Under the pieces are notes generated by a model. That model saw nothing but the letters and a program-made list of their open reading frames with translations, ran no database searches and was not told the DNA's origin. Shown in pieces: positions 2,994-47,250 of a stretch of DNA of 64,000 nt. Made by a program: the position numbers and the translations under genes. Source of the stretch: Thysanoteuthis rhombus (Eukaryota > Mollusca > Cephalopoda > Oegopsida > Thysanoteuthidae); NCBI GenBank assembly GCA_963457665.1, contig OY735215.1, forward strand, positions 41,407,825 through 41,471,824, given 5' to 3'. The stretch's first letter is position 1. Every line of letters starts with the position of its first letter.

Positions 2994-4171
2994 TTTTCTT
3001 TATGTAGCTGAGTACATAAGTTTCTTTTTGTAGTTGAGTATATAATAACAAGTTTCTTTATGTAGTTGAGTATATAATAACAAGTTTCTTTATGTAGTTG
3101 AGTATATAATAACAAGTTTCTTTATGTAGTTGAGTATATAATAACAAGTTTCTTTATGTAGTTGAGTATATAATAACAAGTTTCTTTATGTAGTTGAGTA
3201 TATAATAACAAGTTTCTTTATGTAGTTGAGTATATAATAACAAGTTTCTTTATGTAGTTGAGTATATAATAACAAGTTTCTTTATGTAGTTGAGTATATA
3301 ATAACAAGTTTCTTTATGTAGTTGAGTATATAATAACAAGTTTCTTTATGTAGTTGAGTATATAATAACAAGTTTCTTTATGTAGTTGAGTATATAATAA
3401 CAAGTTTCTTTATGTAGTTGAGTATATAATAACAAGTTTCTTTATGTAGTTGAGTATATAATAACAAGTTTCTTTATGTAGTTGAGTATATAATAACAAG
3501 TTTCTTTAATTAGTTGAGTATATGATAACAAGTTTCTTTATGTAGTTGAGTATATAATAACAAGTTTCTTTATGTAGTTGAGTATATAATAACAAGTTTC
3601 TTTATGTAGTTGAGTATATAATAACAAGTTTCTTTATGTAGTTGAGTATATAATAACAAGTTTCTTTATGTAGTTGAGTATATAATAACAAGTTTCTTTA
3701 TGTAGTTGAGTATATAATAACAAGTTTCTTTATGTAGTTGAGTATATAATAACAAGTTTCTTTATGTAGTTGAGTATATAATAACAAGTTTCTTTATGTA
3801 GTTGAGTATATAATAACAAGTTTCTTTATGTAGTTGAGTATATAATAACAAGTTTCTTTATGTAGTTGAGTATATAATAACAAGTTTCTTTAATTAGTTG
3901 AGTATATAATAAGTTTCTTTTTGTAGTTGAGTATATAATAACAAGTTTCTTTATTCAGTTGAGTATATGAGAAGTTTTTTTTTGAAGTTCAGTATATGAT
4001 AACAAGTTTCTTTATTTAGTTGAGTCTATGATAACAAGTTTCTTTATTTAGTTGAGTATATAATCACAAGTTTCTTTATTTAGTTGAGTATATGATAACA
4101 AGTTTCTTTATATAGTTGAGCATATAATAACAAGTTTCTTCATTTAGTTGAGTATATGATAACAAGTTTCC
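2994..4171. repeat. 32-bp satellite/minisatellite array, about 36 copies
   Basis: The unit combines tttctttatgtag with ttgagtatataataacaag (32 bp). Units from about 3050 to 3885 are almost identical. The left edge (2994-3050) and the right third (3885-4171) carry substitutions and short indels, as expected when unequal exchange homogenises the core. Two core units share the variant tttctttaattag at 3501 and 3885, exactly 384 bp (12 units) apart. All frames are closed, so it is not coding. Confidence 0.95.
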
Positions 4172-5164: not shown

Positions 5165-5420
5165 TATTATCACAGTAGCCCCTCTCTTTTTTTTCATCTG
5201 TGTGTGTGAGTGCATTTGTGGTTGTAGTACCTACATGTTATCAGGAGTACCTCCTGATAACATTTTGGTCTACAACCTTGAAAATCTGCATAAGTTCACC
5301 ACTATGCACCATCTTAAAAGATTTTTGTTGTTTTTCAAAAAAAGTGCTTTCGAGGTCTCTATGCTCATTTCAGACAGACAAGGCCCAAATCTTGTGCTGA
5401 TATTTTTTTAGATGATTTTA
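5165..5420 (+). repeat. Dispersed repeat family E, copy 2, with hairpin
   Basis: It aligns with 2250-2420. It contains an unusually regular hairpin at 5220-5277, and it abuts a family 2 fragment on the right. Confidence 0.4.
5220..5277. other. Two-tier inverted repeat (hairpin)
   Basis: The inner arms tgttatcaggag (5236-5247) and ctcctgataaca (5251-5262) are perfect complements around a 3-base loop. Outer arms ggttgtag (5220-5227) and ctacaacc (5270-5277) are also perfect. The small loop is unlike a microRNA precursor. No function is implied. Confidence 0.75.
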
Positions 5421-5537
5421 GATAAAAGATTGAATCTCTAAAAAATTAATCTACGATAGAAATTCTATCATTTCAGATAACTCTCTGGATAATTAGTTCT
5501 GGTACATGCGCGGGCTACGGTGATTCATTTATGCAAT
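5390..5537. mobile_element. Dispersed repeat family 2, rearranged copy
   Basis: The left part is the minus-strand head of family 2: ataattagttctggtacatg is the reverse complement of the gtaccagaactaattat head. It is joined directly to the plus-strand tail gggctacggtgattca. Head and tail in opposite orientations imply an inversion or foldback rearrangement. Confidence 0.5.
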
Positions 5538-5719
5538 GTATAGATAACATTAATGTTTTTGATTGGTATAAGCCAGAATACTGTGTAATACAAAAAGAAA
5601 GCTCATAGAATACAACAGAATGAAAAAGTTTTGATCTTAGACAACTGACAAGTACTTCAAGAACGAAAGTTATTATTTGGAAAAATCTTCACAAAAACTT
5701 AAATGATAAGTAACAATTC

Positions 5720-6065
5720 AAGAAACAGTATTCTTAACAAGTTGAAAATTCCGGTGTATTTTTAGCCAGTGCTTTATTGATTCAGCATGGTTCGGTATCA
5801 GACAATCAGTAGTGGGAGATCCGAAGAAAATTGAATTCTCCAGAACTTTTGGAGATTCTGGGCGGAGAAACAGACAAACATGAGGGCGTAGACATAAATA
5901 TATGAAACCAAAAAAAAATATCTCGCAGTCAAAATAAATTTATTCAATTCTTCCTTAACCTGTGGCCAAACCTTCCGCTAAAAGCTATTGAAATTCTTTG
6001 AGAACTTTTGGAGATGTTGTGTGGTCAAATAACAGACAAACATGAGTAAATGTATATACCTCTTC
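5720..6065 (-). mobile_element. Two tandem units of the 165-bp foldback-element repeat
   Basis: Anchors agaacttttggagattctgg (about 5840) and gagaacttttggagatgttg (about 6000) are some 160 bp apart, and each is followed by aacagacaaacatgag. They are the reverse complement of the ctccaaaagtcctcaatg core of the units at 20455-21250. I do not see inverted termini here, so this looks like a truncated or internal fragment. Confidence 0.5.
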
Positions 6066-6885
6066 AAACTTTGTTGGCAGAGGTAAAGAAAAAGTGATTT
6101 GAACGCTCGGCCTATATTACACAAATCAAATTTATATAAATGAGCATAAACATAAAATATAAATGAGCAAGTCATTAAACATGACAAAGATGCTTACAAT
6201 CTAAAGTCACTTGATTGTAGAACTTGTACAGATCCATGTATTTGGATATTTATTTGTTATATGAAAGAATATATTTTGGAGGAAAGATCAATTCAAAAAA
6301 TGACAAAAGCATCTACTTCCTGACAAAAGCGATATCATTAAAACATCATACCAAAGTCTTGTAATATCATTAAATAACTTTGAGCAGAAAAAAACCAGGG
6401 AACAATTTAATCAGAGGAAACAACCCGTTTCCCTACTTGAAGATCTCATTTCAGGATTCAATCTGATTCATTAATCTCTACCATCATGAAAAAAAAATCG
6501 CAAGTAAATAAAACTTTCTCAATGTTTGCAATTCTCATGTTCGTATTCAACTCTTCTTTGATGAACCATCATTGACCGCAAAGCACGTTGCATGTAATTA
6601 AAACATATTATGGTCGGATTTCTTTATCAAAGGGTTCTGACGTTGTGAAGAACATGACATCTAAAGGGAAGTTCTTCAGATTTTTCCTACCAGGCTCTTA
6701 ATGTACATCACAATGACACTCGTACATTCTACTTATCTTCGAGAAGATCTTAGATCTTTCTTATTGCCTACCGTTGCATGTAAATGTATTCGACCCCTAA
6801 ATTATTTTTTCCTATTACCAAGCAATTCGATGTACATTATTCCAGTCTTATACATCATTCATGAATGGAGAGAAATTAGTACCAT
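6066..6885. other. No gene recognised
   Basis: AT-rich sequence without a supported gene or a repeat unit that I can place. A 76-codon frame runs through 6701-6931, but only its last ten residues resemble a transposase and belong to the next entry. Confidence 0.5.
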
Positions 6886-6889
6886 ATCA

Positions 6890-7355
6890 ATACTTGCAAA
6901 ATCAGGTCATCCAAGAAGGATTTCAACATAATGGTTGACTAAAATCATAAGGGAAGTTTCAGTCAACCCCAAAGGATATCCAGACAGATCTGAAGGACCC
7001 TGGAAAAGATATACTCATTTCAACAATTCAAAGAATATTGAACCGACAAGGATTTCATAGAGGAGTCACACTAGAAAAAGCCTCTACCGAAGAAACACAG
7101 AGGAATGGTTCAAGGAGAACAAAGTTAGGGTAATTGAATGGCCTTCTCCAGACCTAAATCCAATCTAACATTTGTGGCTTGAGTTACAATGCTGTTCATA
7201 AAGGAAGCCATTGGATCTGAATGTTTTCAAACTATTCTCCATTGAATAATGGTCAGAAATACCAGTTGCAAGATGTTGAGGCTTCATCAAAGGCCACAAA
7301 AAATGTCTATTAGCAGTGATCAGTGGTACCAAAGGATCACATACTAAGTATTAGT
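6890..7355 (+). pseudogene. Tc1-like transposase pseudogene
   Basis: Fragments in order, in shifting frames: KSGHPRRIST (linker after the DNA-binding region), ISTIQRILNRQGFHRG (second helix-turn-helix), EEWFKENKVRVIEWPS then PDLNPI and HLW, and a C-terminus ending SGTKGSHTKY before a stop. In DDE transposases of this group the third acidic residue follows the NPI motif; here that codon is TAA (7166-7168). About 100 residues holding the first two catalytic aspartates are missing between the helix-turn-helix and EEWF. It is clearly dead. Terminal repeats were not identified. Confidence 0.8.
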
Positions 7356-9489: not shown

Positions 9490-10045
9490 TTCATAAAAAA
9501 AGTAAAGATGTCTTCAGTAGAAAAGATCAAGTCTTCAGTAGAAAAGATAGAGTTGCCGTCAGGAGAAAAAAAAGAATTGGAAAGAGTAATTATTTCATCC
9601 ATAACTTGGATGCTTCAATGACTTACATTGACAGAGTTTTCAAACACAATCTTCAATGGAAAAGAGAAAATTGCCTTCAGTATAGAGGAGAAAGTTGCCT
9701 TCGGCAGAGAGGAGAAAGTTGCCTTCAGTAGAGAGGAGAAAGTTGCCTTCGGCAGAGAGGAGAAAGTTGCCTTCAGTATGAAGGAGAAAGTTGCCTTCAG
9801 TAGAGAGGAGAAAGTTGCTTTTGGTAAAGAGGAGAAAGTTGCCTTCGGTAAAGAGGAGAAAGTTGCCTTCGGTAAAGAGGAGAAAGCTGCCTTTGGTAGA
9901 AAAGATAAAGTTACAGTAGCAGAACACACTATAAGCCATGTGGTTAAAATAGCATAATCTGTGAGATGGTAGAGAGTAGAGTGACTTCTATGAATGTGAA
10001 TTTCCATTTCTACTGAAGGCAACATCATCTTTTCTACTCATCTGG
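9490..10045. repeat. 24-bp minisatellite with outlying and inverted units
   Basis: Ten in-register units occupy 9673-9912, each close to gccttcggtaaagaggag plus aaagtt. Looser relatives (tcttcagtagaaaagat) lie at 9508-9565. An inverted one (tctactgaaggcaac) lies near 10008-10022. Units 1-4 alternate agt and ggc variants, suggesting a 48-bp dimer. As 24 is a multiple of three and no unit contains a stop in several frames, the array is open in one plus and at least two minus frames. The plus frame gives repeating EEKVAFG/S octapeptides; one minus frame gives LPKATFSS. No promoter, splice context or homology supports translation. Confidence 0.9.
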
Positions 10046-11840: not shown

Positions 11841-11859
11841 GCACAAACTCAACTTTCAA

Positions 11860-12312
11860 GAAGAAGAAAATACCATTAGTCCTAAACAGAAGGGTATGCA
11901 ACCAATATATCCTCCTGATAGTCACCTATGGACCTGAAATATGGAACTTTACAAAATTGAGAACCATGCAACAAGTACAGGAAAAATCATGCTCAACATC
12001 ACGTGGAGAGATCATAAAACAGCACAGTACATTAGAGGAAGAACAGGAATTAGAAATATAAAATCAGTCAAGAAACACAAATGGCAATGGGCTGGTCATG
12101 TTGCAAGAATTACCAATAACTGATGGACATCACGACTCAAAATGTGGATCTCCAGAGATCATATGCAAAACTGTGGCCAGCAGAAAATAAGATGGCAAAA
12201 GATACTAGACAAGTTCAGAAAGTACTGTCTGCAATATCCATGATAGAAAGATCTGGCAAATCTTGGGGAAGGTCTATGTCAAACAAAGGACACTAAAAGG
12301 CTAATGATGATG
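11860..12312 (+). pseudogene. RTE-like LINE 3' fragment (copy 2)
   Basis: Reads VLNRRVCNQYILLIVTYG and EIWNF in one frame, then after a frameshift near 11945 IMLNITWRDHKTAQYIRG, KWQWAGHVARI, and beyond a stop SRLKMWISRDH and DKFRKY. This is the region after the palm domain in RTE-type ORF2 proteins. The tail is taatgatgatga. The copy is 5'-truncated with at least one frameshift and several stops. Confidence 0.8.
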
Positions 12313-13479: not shown

Positions 13480-14500
13480 AAAGCTTGCTCTCATAAGAAT
13501 CTAAACAGCACCATCAAGATAGAAATGAACGCATTCCTTTTTTCTTTCATCTCAACAGCCTCTCTTCTTTTCAAGCTATAAATGGTACGTTAAAAGTAGA
13601 CCTGAGCAAGCAAAGTTATTGACTGAAAGTCAAGGATGACTTTGAAAGCAATTTCATAACAGACAATTTGAAGCAACCTTACAAGTTACATATAAATATA
13701 GGGAAAAGATCACAGGCATAAGTAAATATAAAAGAAAAGATGAAAAAGATAAAAATTGCACAACTGCAACAGTTAGATGCATACCAGGTCTTAAAATGGC
13801 TATAATATTAGATGCATTAGGGTCTTTTGTTGAGTTATCTTAATATAGATCTGAGAGTGTCTGTAACAGAAGATGTCTTTCTGAAGGTATATGTATATAT
13901 ATTATATAAATATATAAGACCAGTATTCGATGATACCCAACAAGATGATATTAATAGTTGACAACGTGAAAAGAATAATAAATTGTTCAATGTATGGAAA
14001 AAGTCAGGTTCTAAAAGTAAACTTACATTCGCAAAACTTGAGCATCTTCCGTATCAACCCTTAATAAAATCAAAGTTACATTTCTTTCAAGGTTATTAAC
14101 TCATAGCAATCAACAGGCTCTTATTGTTATAAGGAAACATAGGCTCAAAATCATAAATGATATTTTCCAAACATATTCAAAGTTTTTTTTAAGTAACTGA
14201 CGTTTAACATTTGTTCTATGACAATGTTGGCAAAAACCAGTAACTTTTAGGACATGGCTTCATTTTGTACTTTCGTCTTATAAGGCTGCAACCATTGAAA
14301 CATGTGTACAAATTGTTGATTTCAAAATCTATTTCTGATTTTTTCCACATTGTCATCTATTGACATCATATACAAATACACAAACACACATATGCTTCTG
14401 TGATTACATGAAAATGTATGATAGGTAAACATCACAAATACACGTGCACATAAAACACATGATAAATTAGTATTATCTGTAGATATATGTATATTTATTG
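13480..14500. other. No gene recognised
   Basis: AT-rich; contains short frames only. Confidence 0.45.
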
Positions 14501-14800: not shown

Positions 14801-15060
14801 AATTTAAGGAATATTTGTATGTTTTCTTATAAAAGTAAAAGCCTATTAAATGTTAAGAGTAGATAACATTGAAAGAAATGCAACATTGATTTTATTTAGG
14901 GAGTGATACGGAAGACGCTGAAGAGTTTTCTGAATATAAGTTCACTTTTAGAAACTGAGTGCAGGTGCTTGTCATTGACAACTGAAAAGACTCCATCTCA
15001 CAATCCTTTTTCCAGTTACTTGAAAAACACACAGGCCTTACTTAATATCCAAATGCAAAG

Positions 15061-18000: not shown

Positions 18001-18029
18001 ATGAAGCAGAGCAAGCCTAACCTTCAAGA

Positions 18030-18430
18030 CTAAGATTCACTATTCCCAAAAAGAAGGGTATACAACCAATGCATCCTCTTGATCTTCACCGAAGGAGCTG
18101 AAACATGGAACTTGACCCAAAGATTGACCCTTGAACTGAGAGCCATGAATGTGCACAGGAGGGAATCATGCTGATGATCACATGGAGAGATTACAAAACA
18201 GCACAGTATATAAGAGGAGAAACAGCAGCCGATGATATAGAAAGAATTAGAAAACTTAAATGGAAATGGGCTGGTCATGTAGCAAGAATATAACCAGGAC
18301 AACACAACTCACAATGTGGATCCCAAAATATCATATGCGAAACTGTGGCCAGCTGAATATAAGTTGGCATGACGAACTAGACGAGTTTAGAAAGTACTGG
18401 CTCACATTACTGCCCACATTAGAGATAAGA
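18030..18430 (+). pseudogene. RTE-like LINE 3' fragment (copy 3)
   Basis: Shares with copy 2 the agaagggtatacaaccaatg start, the gctgaaacatggaacttgac block, the ggagagattacaaaacagca block, the aatgggctggtcatgtagca block (WAGHVAR) and the gacgagtttagaaagtactg block. It is broken by frameshifts and stops. It ends abruptly at about 18430, where a reverse family 1 fragment begins, so the LINE's own 3' tail is missing. Confidence 0.75.
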
Positions 18431-19980: not shown

Positions 19981-20250
19981 GGCTGTTGATATTCACTTGG
20001 CACTAATGCTAAAAAGGCATGAATTCATCACTTCTCCTCCCCCATCCAGCTAAGCGTAAAATAGAAAAAATGAATACTACACATAAATTTAAGTAACTCA
20101 ATTTTTATCAGTATAACACCACACATTGTACACATATCCTCGAACACTATATATAACAATGTTATATTCAAGATAATATACATATATACACTGAAGGTCA
20201 GCATGTTTGCTAATATCTGCATCGGTACAAATATACAGATAAAACATACC

Positions 20251-21413
20251 AGTCCAGGCAATTAGTCCAAAAATTATTCAGTTGGTGACAAAAGCATGAA
20301 ATTAGGCACAAACATTCTTTGGTAAGTACTGATTTTCAGATTTTTAGATATCGAAACATTCTCAAATTGTCCGTCCATAACAATGGTTGCTAAGGAATTC
20401 ATCTTCCATAGCAATTACAAATTTCTGGATCCAAACCATACCTGCCTAAATCATTTTCCAAAAGTTAAGAATTAATTTCAATCAGATTTTGTGGAAGGGT
20501 GGAGCACAAATGCAAAAAAAGTGATCAAATCTATTTATTTTCCGGAAATTTATTTTTAATAAAGAGATATTTTTGCAGCTTTTTTTTTTTTCTCATATTC
20601 ACTCCTGTCTCTCTACAGGATGTCTTCTGAACTTCTCAAAGAATTTCGATGACATTTAGTAGAAAGATAAACCACACTGTACAAAAGAAATGATCATCTT
20701 TTGGGGTAGGTTCAGGAATTTAAGATATTTTTTCCATTTTAAAATTTCATACATTTCTGTATTCCCACACTTCCGTCCACACGATATCTCCAAAAGTCCT
20801 CAATGAATTTCAATGAAATTTTGTGGATGGGTGAAAAACAAGATAAAAAAAGGAGTGATCAAATTTTTTGGTTAGATCCAAGAATTTGTGTCACATCAAA
20901 AAATATTTTTGCATTTTTTAAAAATACATTTTTGTATTCACTACTATCTAATCGTATGATATCCCCAAAAGGTCACAACTGATGAAATTCTGTGGGAGGG
21001 TCAAACACATTGTAAGGGAAAAATATGTAAATTTCAGTGGGGAGTGACGTAAGAATTTGTTTTCGATTGAGACAAATTTTTCCGTTTTATTATTTTATTC
21101 ATTTCAGTTCATGCTTCTGTCCACACAAAATCTCCAAATGTTCTCAATGATATTTTGCGGGAAGGTAGGCCACAAGATAACAAGGGAGTAATCAAATTTG
21201 GTGGTTACATCAAGGAATTTGTATCTCATTAGGAGATATTTATAGGCTTATTAGGCTTGTTGCTAGGTTCAAAATATTACCTAGCAATCATTGCTACGGA
21301 AAATCTGTTTCAGAATATCTGAAATTGTTCAGTTAACACTGAAGTATCATACAGTTTTATACTTTTATCTCAAATAAACAATTCAGACCAAATTTCCACC
21401 GATCGCCTGGACT
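20251..21413. mobile_element. 1.16-kb foldback-type element with tandem core (pearl-like)
   Basis: The termini agtccaggcaattagtcc (from 20251) and gatcgcctggact (ending 21413) are inverted partners. The match extends inwards for about 165 bp, including ataacaatggttgctaagg on the left and the complement of tagcaatgattgctaggt on the right. The interior has about five diverged direct repeats, with anchors like ctccaaaagtcctcaatgaa near 20455, 20620, 20788, 20962 and 21130 (period 165-174 bp). Each carries a ttttgtgg, an aagtgatcaaat and a ccaagaatttgt box. No transposase is encoded. The plan of inverted termini around tandem units of about 160 bp recalls the bivalve pearl elements and other foldback elements; this is an analogy, not a sequence match. 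Confidence 0.75.
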
Positions 21414-21624
21414 ATGTATCTCTATATGAATTAAGAAAAGTAACTTTATTATTATAATCTATACATGTACAATGGTGTAGATACAGACAGTATGCATACA
21501 TACATGAGTAGATTTATACCAAAAGTACTTACAGTCGTACAATGTACCATAAAACACCTAAAAATTTGTGTGTGTGCATGGGGAATTGTGCGTAAGTAAA
21601 TATATTACTTAGAATTTGGACTGT

Positions 21625-21735: not shown

Positions 21736-21953
21736 AGAGTTGTAATACAACAAAACAACTGTCTTTGGATGGCACAATTATTGATTGATATATATATATA
21801 TAGCTGCATCAGTGTGTGCTAAGCCTGATGGAAAAAGTATTTATTTTCTAACATAATCTCCTCCCTAGCCAATGCCATACACAGTGAAAATTCCTGAGCA
21901 AAATTCAGCTAATAACTATATCAGGTGTGCAGAAGGCAGACGTATTGATTCAA

Positions 21954-28689: not shown

Positions 28690-29612
28690 GCTATGAACGA
28701 ACAAACAAACAGATATATATGAACAGACTGAGATGGATAGATAGATATGAACAGGGATTGATAGATATGAACAGGCTCAGATAGAGAGATGGATATGAAC
28801 TGATTGAGACGGATAGATAGATATGAACAGACTGAGATAGACAGATAGATATAAACAGACTGAGATAGACAGATAGATATAAACAGACTGAGATAGACAG
28901 ATAGATATGAACAGATTGAGATAGAGATAGATATGAACAGATTGAGATAGAGATAGATATGAACTGACTAAGATAAAGATAGATATGAACTGACTAAGAT
29001 AATCATAGATATGAACTGACTAAGATAGAGAGATAGATATGAACTGACTAAGATAGAGAGATAGATATGAACTGACTAAGATAGAGAGATAGATGTGAAC
29101 AGACTGAGATTGATTGATAGATATGAACAGACAGATTAATTGATAGATATGAACAGACTAGGATTGATAGATATGAACAGACTAGGATTGATAGATATGA
29201 ACAGACTAGGATTGATAGATATGAACAGACTGTGATAGATTGATAGGTAGATATGAACAGACTGAGAGATTGATAGATAGATATGAACAGACTGAGATTG
29301 ATTCATAGATAGTTATGAACAGACTGAGATATAGACAAATAGATAGTAAGGTAGATATGAATTGACCAAGATTGATAAATATTAACAGTCTGAGATAGAT
29401 TGTCAGGTAGATATGAATTGATTGAGATGATTAATGAGATATGAATTGATTGAGATAGATAATTAGGGAGATATGAATTGACTGAGATGATTAGGTAGAT
29501 ATGAATTGACTGAGATAATTAGGGAGATCTGAATTGACTGAGATAGATAATTAGGTAGATATGAACTGACTGAGAGAGATAATTAGGTAGACATGAACTT
29601 ACTGAGATAAAT
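28690..29612. repeat. GATA-rich minisatellite array A
   Basis: Units of 24-32 bp built from agatagatatgaacagactg and gagatagac-type spacers. Subtypes change along the array: aacagactgagatagac on the left, aactgactaagatag in the middle, aattgactgagataattagg on the right. Confidence 0.9.
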
Positions 29613-29616
29613 TATA

Positions 29617-31071: not shown

Positions 31072-31515
31072 TAGATATGGACTAAGATATATACATAGAT
31101 TGATAGATATGAAGACTGACAGATAGATTTACTGATATAAACTGACTGACATAGATTGGTAGATAGATATGAACAGATTGATAGATAGATATGAACAGAC
31201 TGACAGATAGATTGATAGATATGAACAGACTGACAGATAGATTGATAGATATGAACAGACTGACAGATAGATTCATAGATATGAACAGACTGACAGATAG
31301 ATTGATAGATATGAACGGACTGACAGATAGATTGATAGATATGAACGGACTGACAGATAGATATGAACAGATTAACAGATATGAACAGACTGACAGTTCT
31401 ATAGATATGAACAGACCGATAGATCTATAGATATGAACAGACTGGCAGATTTATAGATATGAACAGACTGACAGATTTATAGATATGAACAGACTGACGA
31501 TAGATTGAGAGATAT
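31072..31515. repeat. GATA-rich minisatellite array B, 30-bp unit
   Basis: Units of the type atgaacagactgacagatag plus attgatagat, about eight in register at 31190-31370. The 30-bp length keeps one plus frame open (MNRLTDRLID repeats), a simple consequence of period and composition. Confidence 0.9.
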
Positions 31516-31519
31516 GATC

Positions 31520-31740
31520 AGATTGGAAAAATTGAACGTTTCATCCAAAAACATTCTTCATACATACCCTAGTAGTTCAAATTATGGTCATCAATACTGT
31601 CACATAACTGTTTTAATATTATGTGTTTACTTCATATTTTGTGCATATAATTGTATCAGCTGTATTTCAGTTGTGGTGTTATTTGAACTTAGTAAAGCAT
31701 GTATGTAACGTTGAATTTTTCATACTATGCAAATACTTAC
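31520..31740. other. Unique spacer between GATA arrays B and C
   Basis: Non-repetitive sequence of about 220 bp with a 67-codon frame starting MRDMIRLEKLNVSS and no recognised motif. Confidence 0.4.
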
Positions 31741-31749
31741 TGGTCCCAC

Positions 31750-31975
31750 TGTAGATACATAGATATTACTAGGCATAGATAGACAGATAGATCTGACCAG
31801 TGATTGATAGACTGATAGATCTGACCGATGACAGACTGATAGATATGACCAAGGATGGATAGATAGATCTGACTATTGATTGACAGGGGTAGGTAGACAG
31901 ATAGATCTGACCAGGGATACATAGACATAGATTTGACCAAATACATAGATAGATCTGACCAAATAAACATATAGA
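31750..31975. repeat. GATA-rich minisatellite array C
   Basis: Units with gatagatctgaccag in place of gatagatatgaacag; irregular 24-40 bp period. Confidence 0.85.
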
Positions 31976-32466
31976 GAGAAAAGGCTAAAAATCATAGCTT
32001 AGAGACAAAGATATTGGATTCGATAAGTACTCTAAAGTAATGATTATGTTACAATGTTGTACAGTGTAAATCTTCTAAGCAGCCGTAAAAATTAGCATTC
32101 AAAAGAGTAGCTTTTATGTCATTAAAAAATATCACTGAAAGCAAACCCCCTCTCATCTGAACTTGCAAGGTCTGTTCAATTGACTCACTGATTTATCAGG
32201 ACATAAGTCAATTCTGCAATCTCCAACAAATGTATGTATCTCAGGTTTTCTCCTTCAATCAACATTTATCCCCTTGACTTGTCTTTATAAGTCTGTCTAC
32301 TCTTCTAATGATGGCTGCCACTTGTTTCAAATCTAATGGCAGTGAAATCATATTTTTGATGAACACAGCCTGGTCAAAGTATTAGACGTTAACAATCAAA
32401 CCATCTTCCAGTTATCCTACGAAATGGCATAGAAATGCAATTATGCCACCCGAGATTTTATCGAAA

Positions 32467-37739: not shown

Positions 37740-38070
37740 TTGTCCATTAAGACAAAAAGATGTCTCTTGGGATGGGAAATCTTTGAAAATTTATATCTCC
37801 GTGTTTGTTGTACATGACATTTGTTCCACTGAAGTTCATGTTAAGGTATACTTTCTTGCCTTCTCTATTCAGTTCATCTAGCATTCTTCGGAGTTCATGG
37901 AAGTTCTCTGCAAAGATGACAATGTCGTCTGCAAATGTGAGGTTATTTATATATTCATAGTCTATTCTGATTCCTTCATTTTCCCAGTCTACATTTTGGA
38001 AGATCATCTTGAGGCAGGCTGTGAAGACTTACAGTGAGCTGGTATTGTGTTGCTTAACCCTCTTCTTGAG
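37740..38070 (-). pseudogene. RTE-like reverse transcriptase fragment (palm domain)
   Basis: The minus strand reads FTACLKMIFQNVDWENEGI, YINNLTFADDIVIFAEN, and LDELNREGKKVYLNMNFS ending near TNVM. FADD is the reverse-transcriptase catalytic motif C; the following LNMNFS..TNVM segment is conserved in RTE-type LINEs. Upstream, a KKRVKQ-like stretch is followed by an in-frame stop before the FTACL block. The downstream WAGH region is not attached. The fragment probably belongs to the same family as the ten 3' ends. Confidence 0.8.
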
Positions 38071-41604: not shown

Positions 41605-41922
41605 GTGGATACATAATCCAACAGAATATTTATGAAAGCATTACATTATTTGAAACTCTATTTGAAATTACCTCCAGATGTTACATGGAGAATAAGTCAC
41701 TTGGCCTAGACAACGTGAATAGAATAAACAATTAAAGAAAAAATGGGGCAGCTGTAGGAATTGAACCTGCAGCTGATAAGGTAGCCACTTCAACATAGTG
41801 TTGCTCTTAACCATTGAGCTAAACAGTCCGCTGGAAAGACAAAGACCCAAATAACCGCTTCATATCCACTCTTCTACTCTTGTTCATACACTGTCAAATA
41901 GGGTTTCAAATAATATAAACCA

Positions 41923-42579: not shown

Positions 42580-43830
42580 AGGACGTTTCCAGAAACAATC
42601 CAATGGTTGTTCTCAAAAACCTTCTCTCAGAGTTATCCCAAATGCAAGCAAAGTTGTTAATGGAACCTGTTTTCTGTTTTTCCAGTATTTAAAAACACTG
42701 GTTAACTTCCAGTCTCTCTCGATATCAACCAACTAGCCTTCTGGACAGCAGAAGTAAGGTCTTCGAGTTCATCATCAATAGGCATATCTTCAATCCATCT
42801 CAAATGCGCCGACTATAATCACCCACGGAAATAGTGGAGCACTGGATACAAGCTTTGTTGCACGTGCCATTGCCTTTGGTATCACTAAGGCTTTTGACAC
42901 AGTGTGGCTCAAGGGATTGCTCCACAAGCTCACCAGTTATGGCATCTCTGATTGAGTGCATTCAATCATAGGATCCTTTCTGTCTGGGAGAACAATGCAG
43001 GTGGCTGTTAATGACCAGATCTCAGTTGTTCATGGAATCAGTGCTGGTGTACCTCAGGGCTCTGTCTTTGGACCAGCTCTCTTCCTGATGTCCATAAATT
43101 ACTTGCCTGACAATATCATCGGGTCTTTTGTTGATATCTATGCCGATGATACCACACTCTATGAGCATTCTTCAGGGAAAATTAATCACCAGGACATGGT
43201 ATCTGATCTTTCCTCTGATCTATCCTTGACAGTTGATTGGAGAAGAATCTGGCTTGTGTCATTCAACAAAACTAAAACCAAGCTTTATTTTTCCATCATC
43301 ATTGTAACATCCCTCAATTTCCCCCCAAATCAACTGGATGGAACCACTCTCAAAGGGGCCACATGCTTTGATAAACATCTTGGCCCAAAGTTTACACCAG
43401 ACTTGAATGTGACTTCCATGTTTCATGTTGCCCTAGACGTGGTGAAAATGATAGGTTCATTATACCGCTCCCGAAAAATATCTGACCCAATCTGCCATTC
43501 CATATCTTTAAAAGAGTCAAATACAACCCAAAATGGCTTATAGGAGCTCCATCACCTGGTTTGAACAGTAAGGGATTTTCCAGTCTGAACACATTTTCCT
43601 ATCTCTAGTGATTCCTCTCTACATTTTCTGACCATACCACGTACCCGTAGCAATTTCCACTCGAACAGCTTCTTCCCCCACCCACCGAATAGCTGTTTTG
43701 TGGAACAATCTTCCCTGAAAGTGCTTTCTTTCTGGATATAATATCCATCTTTTTAAATGCAGGATCAATAAATATCTTGTGAACCTGAAATTACTTTAAC
43801 CCTATACCTAGAGTGGCCCCTGTTATGACA
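42580..43830 (+). pseudogene. Jockey/CR1-like LINE reverse transcriptase, decayed
   Basis: From about 42720 a degraded SRSKVFEFIINRHIFNP block; then ITKAFDTVWLKGLLHKLTSY followed by an in-frame TGA (42953-42955). Then an open stretch of 195 codons (42956-43543) with SFLSGRTMQVAVN, ISAGVPQGSVFGPALFL, NYLPDN and DIYADDTTLYE. GVPQGSVxGPxLFL and the YADD box are reverse-transcriptase motifs; AFDTVW carries the first catalytic aspartate. Further on are KTKL, IGSLYRSRK and, out of frame near 43680, a HRIAVLWNNLP C-terminal motif. No endonuclease domain precedes it, so it is 5'-truncated. Confidence 0.85.
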
Positions 43831-46428: not shown

Positions 46429-47250
46429 CTTTGATATGCTGGTAATATTGTTGCTCATTCAAAGGAAGATCAAATGGCTGAGAGAGGCTGACAATGACCA
46501 CTTCAGAGCAACAAGATTAAAGACCTTTTTCTGAATATAAACCAAAGATGGGTTTGACCAAGTGCCAGACCAACAAGGGTGACATTAAAACTTAACCTAC
46601 AAGCAGAGAAAGGAGTAGAAAACAAGTCTACTTATGCAGTACACCAGGGCCATTACATAAGTAATAAGCCTGTGTACAAGTGGTTTTAGTGATCATATAG
46701 TGACTATGCAGGAGCCTTGGCATTGCAAACTAATAAGACCATTCACCTCCAATTTTCATCAGAACATGTCCAGACAACTACTAGCATTTAAGGAAATATC
46801 TGAGTGACACGCTGAGATAGGAATGCAATCTTTTATTCATATTTCAATTAGTGTGTAATTCAAAATACAGGTTTTTTTTGTCCAGACATCTTTTTCCTAC
46901 TTTAGATTCTGTTCTGGCCATTTGGTAACAGCAGAATACTTAATGGTTAATAGAAGCTAAAAATGTGCGATGCAGTCCATGTGGTTAGCATTTATAACTA
47001 ATATATTTTTCTTTTTACTTCTGCTACAAGTGAGGTACAAAAAATAATATGTACTGCATAAATTCTTCTTTTTCTACTGGTAAGTTGAGTTTTAATGTCA
47101 CCCTTATTGGTCTGGCATTTGGTCAAACAATCTTTGTTTAATATTCAGGAAATGGTCTTCAATTTTGTTACTCTGAAGAGGTCATTGTCAGCTCCACTTA
47201 ACCATTTGATCTTCATTTAAATAAGCAAAAATATTACCAGCATATCAAAA
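46429..47250. mobile_element. 822-bp inverted-repeat element, arms about 200 bp
   Basis: The left arm 46429-46642 starts ctttgatatgctggtaatat and includes aagatcaaatggctgag, gctgacaatgaccacttcag, gccagaccaacaagggtgac and tatgcagtac. The right arm 47051-47250 is its reverse complement with roughly 15 percent mismatch and small indels. The arms stop sharply at the same base pairs. The 408-bp spacer is AT-rich and non-coding. No target duplication is evident. Long-armed foldback element or MITE; superfamily unknown. Confidence 0.8.

Follow-up and report, generated by a model that had tools for sequence, protein, structure and literature searches.

What kind of sequence occupies positions 20251 to 21413 of the window, that is, of the 64,000 nucleotides of contig OY735215.1 of Thysanoteuthis rhombus that were analyzed here? 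The first-pass annotation had described inverted termini of ca. 165 bp around five 168-bp tandem units and had taken them for a non-autonomous element. A repeat scan and alignments compared with shuffled sequences confirmed this anatomy, in which inverted ends of ca. 165 bp flank five diverged units of ca. 168 bp.

The copy in the window and its surroundings

The outermost arms of the element (20251 to 20271 and 21393 to 21413) were detected by a plain repeat scan, while the complete arms extend over about 20251 to 20416 and 21245 to 21413, with the first nine bases identical at both ends. The local alignment of the two ends scored 40.5, compared with a maximum of 27 in 1,000 dinucleotide shuffles. 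After removing the outer 15 bases, the score was still 35.5, a value reached in none of 1,000 dinucleotide shuffles and, as a control, in none of 494 random pairings of random places in the window. Identity amounted to 114 of 141 aligned columns, in an alignment whose freely opened gaps added 54 gap columns. A second control spoke against the ends: a scan of the whole window for inverted pairs separated by 300 to 6,000 bp, after filtering of simple words, returned eight clusters with scores of at least 36, three of which beat the element. In such a repeat-rich window the inverted-end score is therefore unexceptional, and it is the copies elsewhere with common boundaries that decide. The features of the copy, with end types A and B named after the two kinds of end found in the family, are the following, and the last row gives a remnant of its unit family that lies elsewhere in the window.

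20250 to 20251, no strand: position of the left target dinucleotide, CA in place of the family's TA
20251 to 20413, plus strand: left terminal repeat, end type A (profile match to 20416; from the profile and consensus identity)
20412 to 20456, minus strand: inverted unit stub of ca. 45 bp, remnant of the opposed A-side array (from a shuffle test)
20456 to 20619, plus strand: unit 1 of the B-side array (82.8% identity to the unit consensus)
20620 to 20783, plus strand: unit 2 of the B-side array (79.7%)
20784 to 20958, plus strand: unit 3 of the B-side array (79.8%)
20959 to 21127, plus strand: unit 4 of the B-side array (83.8%)
21128 to 21244, plus strand: unit 5 of the B-side array (80.2%)
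21245 to 21413, minus strand: right terminal repeat, end type B (from consensus identity and scores)
21413 to 21414, no strand: right target dinucleotide, TA
5830 to 6050, minus strand: separate unit-family remnant, one unit and parts of its neighbors (from nhmmer and BLAST pieces)

The units start at 20456, 20620, 20784, 20959, and 21128 (spacings of 164, 164, 175, and 169 bp), and the last one ends near 21244, so that the array holds about 4.7 units. All 10 pairs of units within the array scored above every one of their 200 dinucleotide shuffles, and Tandem Repeats Finder, at a score of 40, gave no row for it. No open frame of 90 codons or more was found within 20251 to 21413, and no target duplication was seen at this copy. 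The remnant at 5830 to 6050, beside which no end was found, was recovered by nhmmer at 6015 to 5860 (E = 1.8e-32, the remnant itself being part of the profile) and at 6015 to 5873 with the family profile (E = 6.8e-22); compared with unit 4 alone, its score was inside the shuffle range.

Several other features of the window were recorded. Among its inverted pairs, the one at 21897 and 24743 (score of 44, above that of the element's ends) may be simple sequence. Another, at 46430 to 46600 and 47090 to 47249, spans ca. 0.8 kb with well-conserved arms of ca. 160 to 170 bp, and its sequence is unrelated to the left end of the element. A third (14009 to 14153 and 14825 to 14953) has arms of ca. 130 to 145 bp around GTGTATATATACACAC-like repeats. 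Tandem repeats include a minisatellite with 36 copies of a 32-bp unit and 95% matches (3018 to 4170), two arrays of similar appearance in which the units are AGATAGATATGAACAGACTG-like and several periods are nested (28708 to 29613 and 31095 to 31979), and a 24-bp repeat at 9664 to 9912 that is open in frame on both strands (EEKVAFGR-like on the plus strand and LPKATFSS-like on the minus strand). A dispersed repeat at 18012 to 18416 has similar sequences at 11844 to 12230, 40831 to 40428, 51342 to 51012, and 61039 to 60671. Two reverse transcriptase fragments matched Pfam RVT_1, one above the curated cutoff (42956 to 43543, plus strand; E = 3e-8) and the other below it (37747 to 38028, minus strand; E = 1.6e-4), and an 84-bp tRNA-Asn(GTT) gene or tRNA-like sequence lies at 41745 to 41828 on the minus strand.

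Dispersed copies, common boundaries, and the target site

We searched the 2.73-Gb host genome with the element and, scoring the best 40 of 3,622 first-look candidates, obtained at least 98 matches at no fewer than 39 places. All 39 were retrieved and scanned with profiles (loci L001 and L009 to L046). At E ≤ 0.001, the end profile gave 49 matches in 30 of the 39 loci and the unit profile 281 matches in all of them, with profiles trained on these same loci. Because the sample consists of the top-scoring members of a larger family, it leans toward well-kept copies. Both ends were present in 18 loci, while one or both were missing in the other 21, in some cases perhaps as a result of short retrieved stretches. 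In L037 and L038, which lie ca. 0.6 Mb apart on one contig and in opposite orientation, the same end adjoins the same flank; they are probably one duplicated locus and hence not independent. Beyond the host, the viral and prokaryotic collections yielded no relatives (viral_contigs and genome_contigs) and no match among phages, which says little given the nature of these collections. Nor did we find a description of the family in the open-licence literature or in the available part of the Octopus vulgaris repeat annotation (PMC13282606). A literature text search with six pieces of the unit and ends returned at least 20 papers, each with only one of two 11-letter strings and judged from its title to be a chance match.

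Boundaries were examined in the 37 of the 49 end matches that start within 4 positions of the profile start, belonging to 25 loci. Between loci, flank identity was 0.279 from −40 to −21 and 0.291 from −20 to −3 (expected value of 0.279), and it was 0.783 at positions +1 to +8 of the end. The initial reading of the locus depended on copies elsewhere sharing the limits at 20251 and 21413, with no flanking homology beyond them, and this is what the family shows, with common boundaries and random flanks. Dispersed copies with common boundaries are also what membership of the foldback class calls for. That the window contains further inverted pairs whose scores are similar or higher would agree with ordinary DNA having been duplicated locally in inverted orientation, rather than with a mobile element; however, many contigs carry copies that agree in boundaries and order and lie within unrelated flanks, leaving this explanation with a practically negligible probability. 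For 20251 to 21413, the boundaries common to dispersed copies refute it.

The first bases across the border were strongly biased, with T at −1 in 31 of the 37 ends (P = 2e-10), A at +1 in 30, and an intact TA at −1/+1 in 25. Further out, A at −2 (23/37) and T at −4 (22/37) were also enriched, which we read as fitting TA-rich targets. When 10 pairs were compared at 7 boundary offsets, no target duplication of 3 to 10 bp rose above shuffled pairings (lowest permutation P of 0.10), although, the copies being old, eroded longer duplications could be missed. The TA borders thus fit insertion at TA with duplication of TA, the habit of Tc1/mariner elements, yet they may be the element's own last base pair. 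Empty sites were sought by comparing 14 joined flank pairs, which carried one base too many, with ca. 229 kb of sequence (the 39 loci plus the window), and no usable one was found. Five matches spanned the join: two to the locus itself, two to units of L022, and a weak one to L045 (63% identity, E = 6.6e-4).

Ground plan, deletion, and decay

The earlier view, drawn from a single copy, had missed that fuller members of the family have two opposed arrays, one of which is kept in the window copy. Fifteen of the 18 two-ended loci had a single switch of unit orientation, from minus to plus (outward facing), and thus tandem repeats in mirror orientation within long inverted arms, the structural mark of foldback elements. 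All 21 switches less than 150 bp apart, considering all loci, ran in this direction. In the other three two-ended loci (L022, L045, and the window copy), all units between the ends had one orientation. Folded as single-stranded DNA, a 926-bp two-armed member outperformed all 20 of its shuffles (z = −3.6), which agrees with a foldback nature.

The ends are of two kinds. Next to type A (163 bp) there is usually a unique spacer of ca. 200 bp, while type B (174 bp) adjoins the array, and the two consensuses are 83.5% identical outside gaps. One end of each kind was present in 16 of the 18 two-ended loci (nine with A on the left and seven with B on the left), and the other two, L022 and L045, had two B ends. 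By sequence, all 13 ends that the spacer follows were type A, and 30 of the 31 ends less than 30 bp from the array were type B, a split that is partly built in, since the consensuses were made from ends sorted by array distance; in most ends, the scores against A and B differed about twofold. Junctions are also recurrent. The array stopped at unit phase 129 to 131 in 18 of the 31 array-close ends and at phase 119 to 123, with a wider gap, in 9 more, and the junction between array and spacer was at phase 103 to 106 in 10 of 13 cases. A common center (phase 75 to 85 against 1 to 5, 12 to 20 bp apart) was found in 6 of the 21 centers, the other 15 having no common junction. A single founding element with the order A, spacer, opposed arrays, and B explains most of the set, and for the double B ends of L022 and L045 and the 15 deviating centers we propose deletions.

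Some details of individual members and consensuses stand apart from this plan. End B of L041 is interrupted. Both end consensuses contain an inner palindrome, like CCTTAGCAACGGTTGCTAGG in type B or CCATAGCAACAGTTGCTAAGG in type A, followed by a second TAGCAAC, and this palindrome may serve for binding or form a hairpin. In the spacer consensus, a 52-codon frame starts at an ATG and continues into the unit, with no stop in the consensus sequence, and may be due to chance. The 2.1 kb of extra sequence in L044 was considered as a transposase gene and rejected, since, judged by inspection, it is an insertion of hAT type nested within the spacer. It occupies about 5175 to 7312, its ends are CAGTGGCGGA and CAGTGGTGGA (CAGTGGYGGA), which we take to be typical of hAT, and its 8-bp repeats, GTCTGGCT and GTCTGACC, match at six of eight positions. 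Three frames of the insertion were scanned, with one weak match to Dimer_Tnp_hAT (E = 0.068, below the curated cutoff) and no other transposase.

Placed on this plan, the window copy reads as follows. Its left end is 88.1% identical to the type A consensus (built from the 13 ends that have a spacer) and 77.3% identical to that of type B, with scores of 115.5 and 59.5, respectively, when the window's own ends are excluded from the consensus. The right end is 88.7% identical to the B consensus, which was built from 28 ends sorted by distance and includes this very end and one A-type end, compared with 80.7% to A; excluding the window's own ends, the scores were 106.5 for B and 55.5 for A. Part of the difference between the two ends of this copy is therefore the old difference between A and B. 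Unit 5 is cut at unit phase ca. 129, the family's commonest junction between the array and end B. On the other side, the segment 20412 to 20456 scored 18 against the reverse-complemented unit, which none of 1,000 shuffles equaled, whereas 165 of 1,000 equaled its score against the forward unit and 909 of 1,000 that against the spacer. A previous reading of 20413 to 20455 as the tail of a forward unit, for which 39 of 500 shuffles were as good, was replaced by that of an inverted stub. The ca. 200-bp spacer is absent from the copy, and 20412 to 20456 gave no match to it. With the inverted stub directly after end A and no spacer, the spacer and nearly all of one arm have been lost, and the window copy is a deletion derivative consisting of end A, an inverted stub of ca. 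45 bp, five units, and end B. A single copy can thus mislead about anatomy, as the "ends plus tandem core" at 20251 to 21413 is the remnant of a two-armed element.

To follow the evolution of the arrays, 167 units were compared in 62 neighboring pairs, 89 other pairs of the same arm, 135 pairs between arms, and 4,656 between elements. Identity was 0.636 for neighbors, 0.647 for other pairs of the same arm, 0.641 between arms, and 0.645 between elements, and the units averaged 77% identity to their consensus. Because unit identity is nearly equal within and between elements, the arrays look old and inherited; those of the founder were apparently almost uniform, and their later decay shows no exchange that could be detected. 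The units keep a faint memory of rank, those of the same rank counted from end B being more alike between elements (0.664 versus 0.647; permutation P = 0.002; 54 units). For the ends, identity was 0.636 between left and right within an element and 0.702 between ends of different loci. This lower value within elements fits the A/B split and is unlike a young inverted-repeat element. The sampled copies look inactive and decaying.

These numbers also bear on a MITE that captured a satellite and is now seeding free arrays, following the model of Xenopus miDNA4, for which a path from captured satellite to free arrays is described in the available text of PMC12628747. Arrays without a detectable end in the retrieved stretch were present in 9 of the 39 loci, and in three of them (L025, L035, and L017, with two to three units each) units were slightly more alike within the array (0.707, 0.699, and 0.660) than to others (0.667, 0.671, and 0.645). 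Taken together, however, the nine loci were about as alike within (0.622 to 0.707) as to units elsewhere (0.635 to 0.671), so that they resemble remnants rather than new satellites. Over the retrieved stretches of the 39 loci, the units did not show the homogenization within an array that is expected of a satellite with long arrays. We therefore regard a satellite-seeding MITE as improbable. The suggestion that the core seeds free satellite arrays found no support in this sample, in which identity within arrays is about that between loci.

Class, mechanism, and comparison with known systems

The window copy is, with high probability, an old, internally deleted member of a multi-copy, apparently non-coding family of foldback-type DNA transposons. 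The original interpretation holds in describing a mobile, non-autonomous element that combines inverted ends with a tandem core, and in likening it to foldback elements, while neither kinship with pearl elements nor, in this sample, the seeding of satellites is supported. The founder would have consisted of end A (163 bp), a spacer of ca. 200 bp, several units of ca. 166 bp in one direction, a short center, several units in the other direction, and end B (174 bp). Its copies would have moved by cut-and-paste into TA sites by means of a transposase that acted on the ends and came from another element, probably one of the Tc1/mariner type. Unit number may have varied by slippage or by recombination or unequal exchange within the arms, and the window copy would have lost its spacer and nearly all of the A-side array through one or two deletions.

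As to the narrower proposal that a Tc1/mariner-type transposase powers the element, we hold the chances to be about even. The preference for T at −1 (31/37) and A at +1 (30/37), and the lack of a duplication longer than TA, argue for it. On the other hand, no transposase was seen in the sampled members, and comparison of the outer and inner parts of the ends did not support inner direct repeats of the Sleeping Beauty type (shuffles were as good in 31 of 1,000 cases on the left, 961 of 1,000 on the right, and 217 of 1,000 jointly), which led us to reject them. Moreover, Tc1/mariner ends often start with CAGT, unlike the GTCCAGG found here. The TA border suggests a partner of this type but is not proof of it, and the family is filed at the level of the foldback kind. 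Rather doubtful is the more specific idea of a TA-targeting, Tc1/mariner-powered foldback family with two distinct ends and a fixed pair of outward-facing arrays, whose layout was kept during the spread of the element because the units serve transposition, e.g., as repeated transposase-binding or hairpin-forming sites.

The other class considered was that of Helentron-derived elements (HINEs) of the pearl or Cg_HINE kind, in which satellite-like repeats move by rolling-circle transposition. Such elements share the unit length class, the array in the middle of the element, the non-coding nature, and the absence of a long target duplication, and arrays in different directions are reported inside some Helitron/Helentron elements in the available text of PMC12628747. 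According to the portions available of PMC7492417, PMC5139131, and PMC4067079, pearl elements are now filed as non-autonomous Helentrons, with subterminal repeats of 11 to 15 bp, a 3′ palindrome, and T-rich flanks. The family described here has instead inverted ends of 163 to 174 bp, no hairpin at the right end of the window copy (21363 to 21428; z = 0.49, with 128 of 200 shuffles folding as well), and flanks that, read on one strand, have T before the element and A after it rather than T on both sides. A HINE is thus very unlikely, and the long inverted ends, the missing right-end hairpin, and the T-left/A-right flanks leave the kinship with pearl elements unsupported. The likeness is limited to short arrays of 138- to 181-bp units within a non-coding mobile element, the size range of the consensus monomers given for oyster in the same partly available sources (PMC7492417; also PMC5139131 and PMC4067079 for the arrays). 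The difference resides in the Helentron ends and flanks, with BIV160 and Cg170 compared by description only (PMC7492417).

Closer likenesses are found among foldback elements. Tetris of Drosophila virilis, as described in the accessible part of PMC4079207, has variable tandem units of ca. 220 bp inside both inverted ends and three structurally complete copies, with DAIBAM as a probable deletion derivative. Our family resembles it in being non-coding, with long inverted ends, internal tandem units, and a deletion derivative. It differs in having at most TA where Tetris has target duplications of 8 to 10 bp and in its units of ca. 166 bp, the two being set apart by description and not by sequence; furthermore, Tetris units form kilobase-size satellites (PMC4079207), none of which were seen in the sampled family loci. 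In the Galileo/Foldback group, the available text of PMC3573991 likewise reports internal tandem repeats of ca. 210 bp (subfamily F), deletion derivatives, and two-ended copies without transposase. Unlike the squid family, Galileo belongs to the P superfamily, duplicates 7 bp of its target, and has copies that resemble one another more closely, with TIR identities of 92 to 97% within most subfamilies (PMC3573991). No target duplication of 7 to 10 bp, like those of Tetris and Galileo, was found over the 10 pairs compared here, among which eroded ones could be missed. Xenopus miDNA4 and Xstir are also comparable, being MITEs whose tandem core varies in copy number, and miDNA4 is assigned to Tc1/mariner; two opposed arrays with a fixed center are not described for them in the available text of PMC12628747.

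Foldback elements with tandem arms thus gain a further family, from a eukaryotic genome of 2.7 Gb. Since many copies are built on one ground plan and their units give no indication of homogenization within elements, the family provides a test of the concerted evolution of element-borne arrays, and in this sample such arrays do not evolve in concert. Its TA border separates it from both Tetris and Galileo, with their duplications of 7 to 10 bp.
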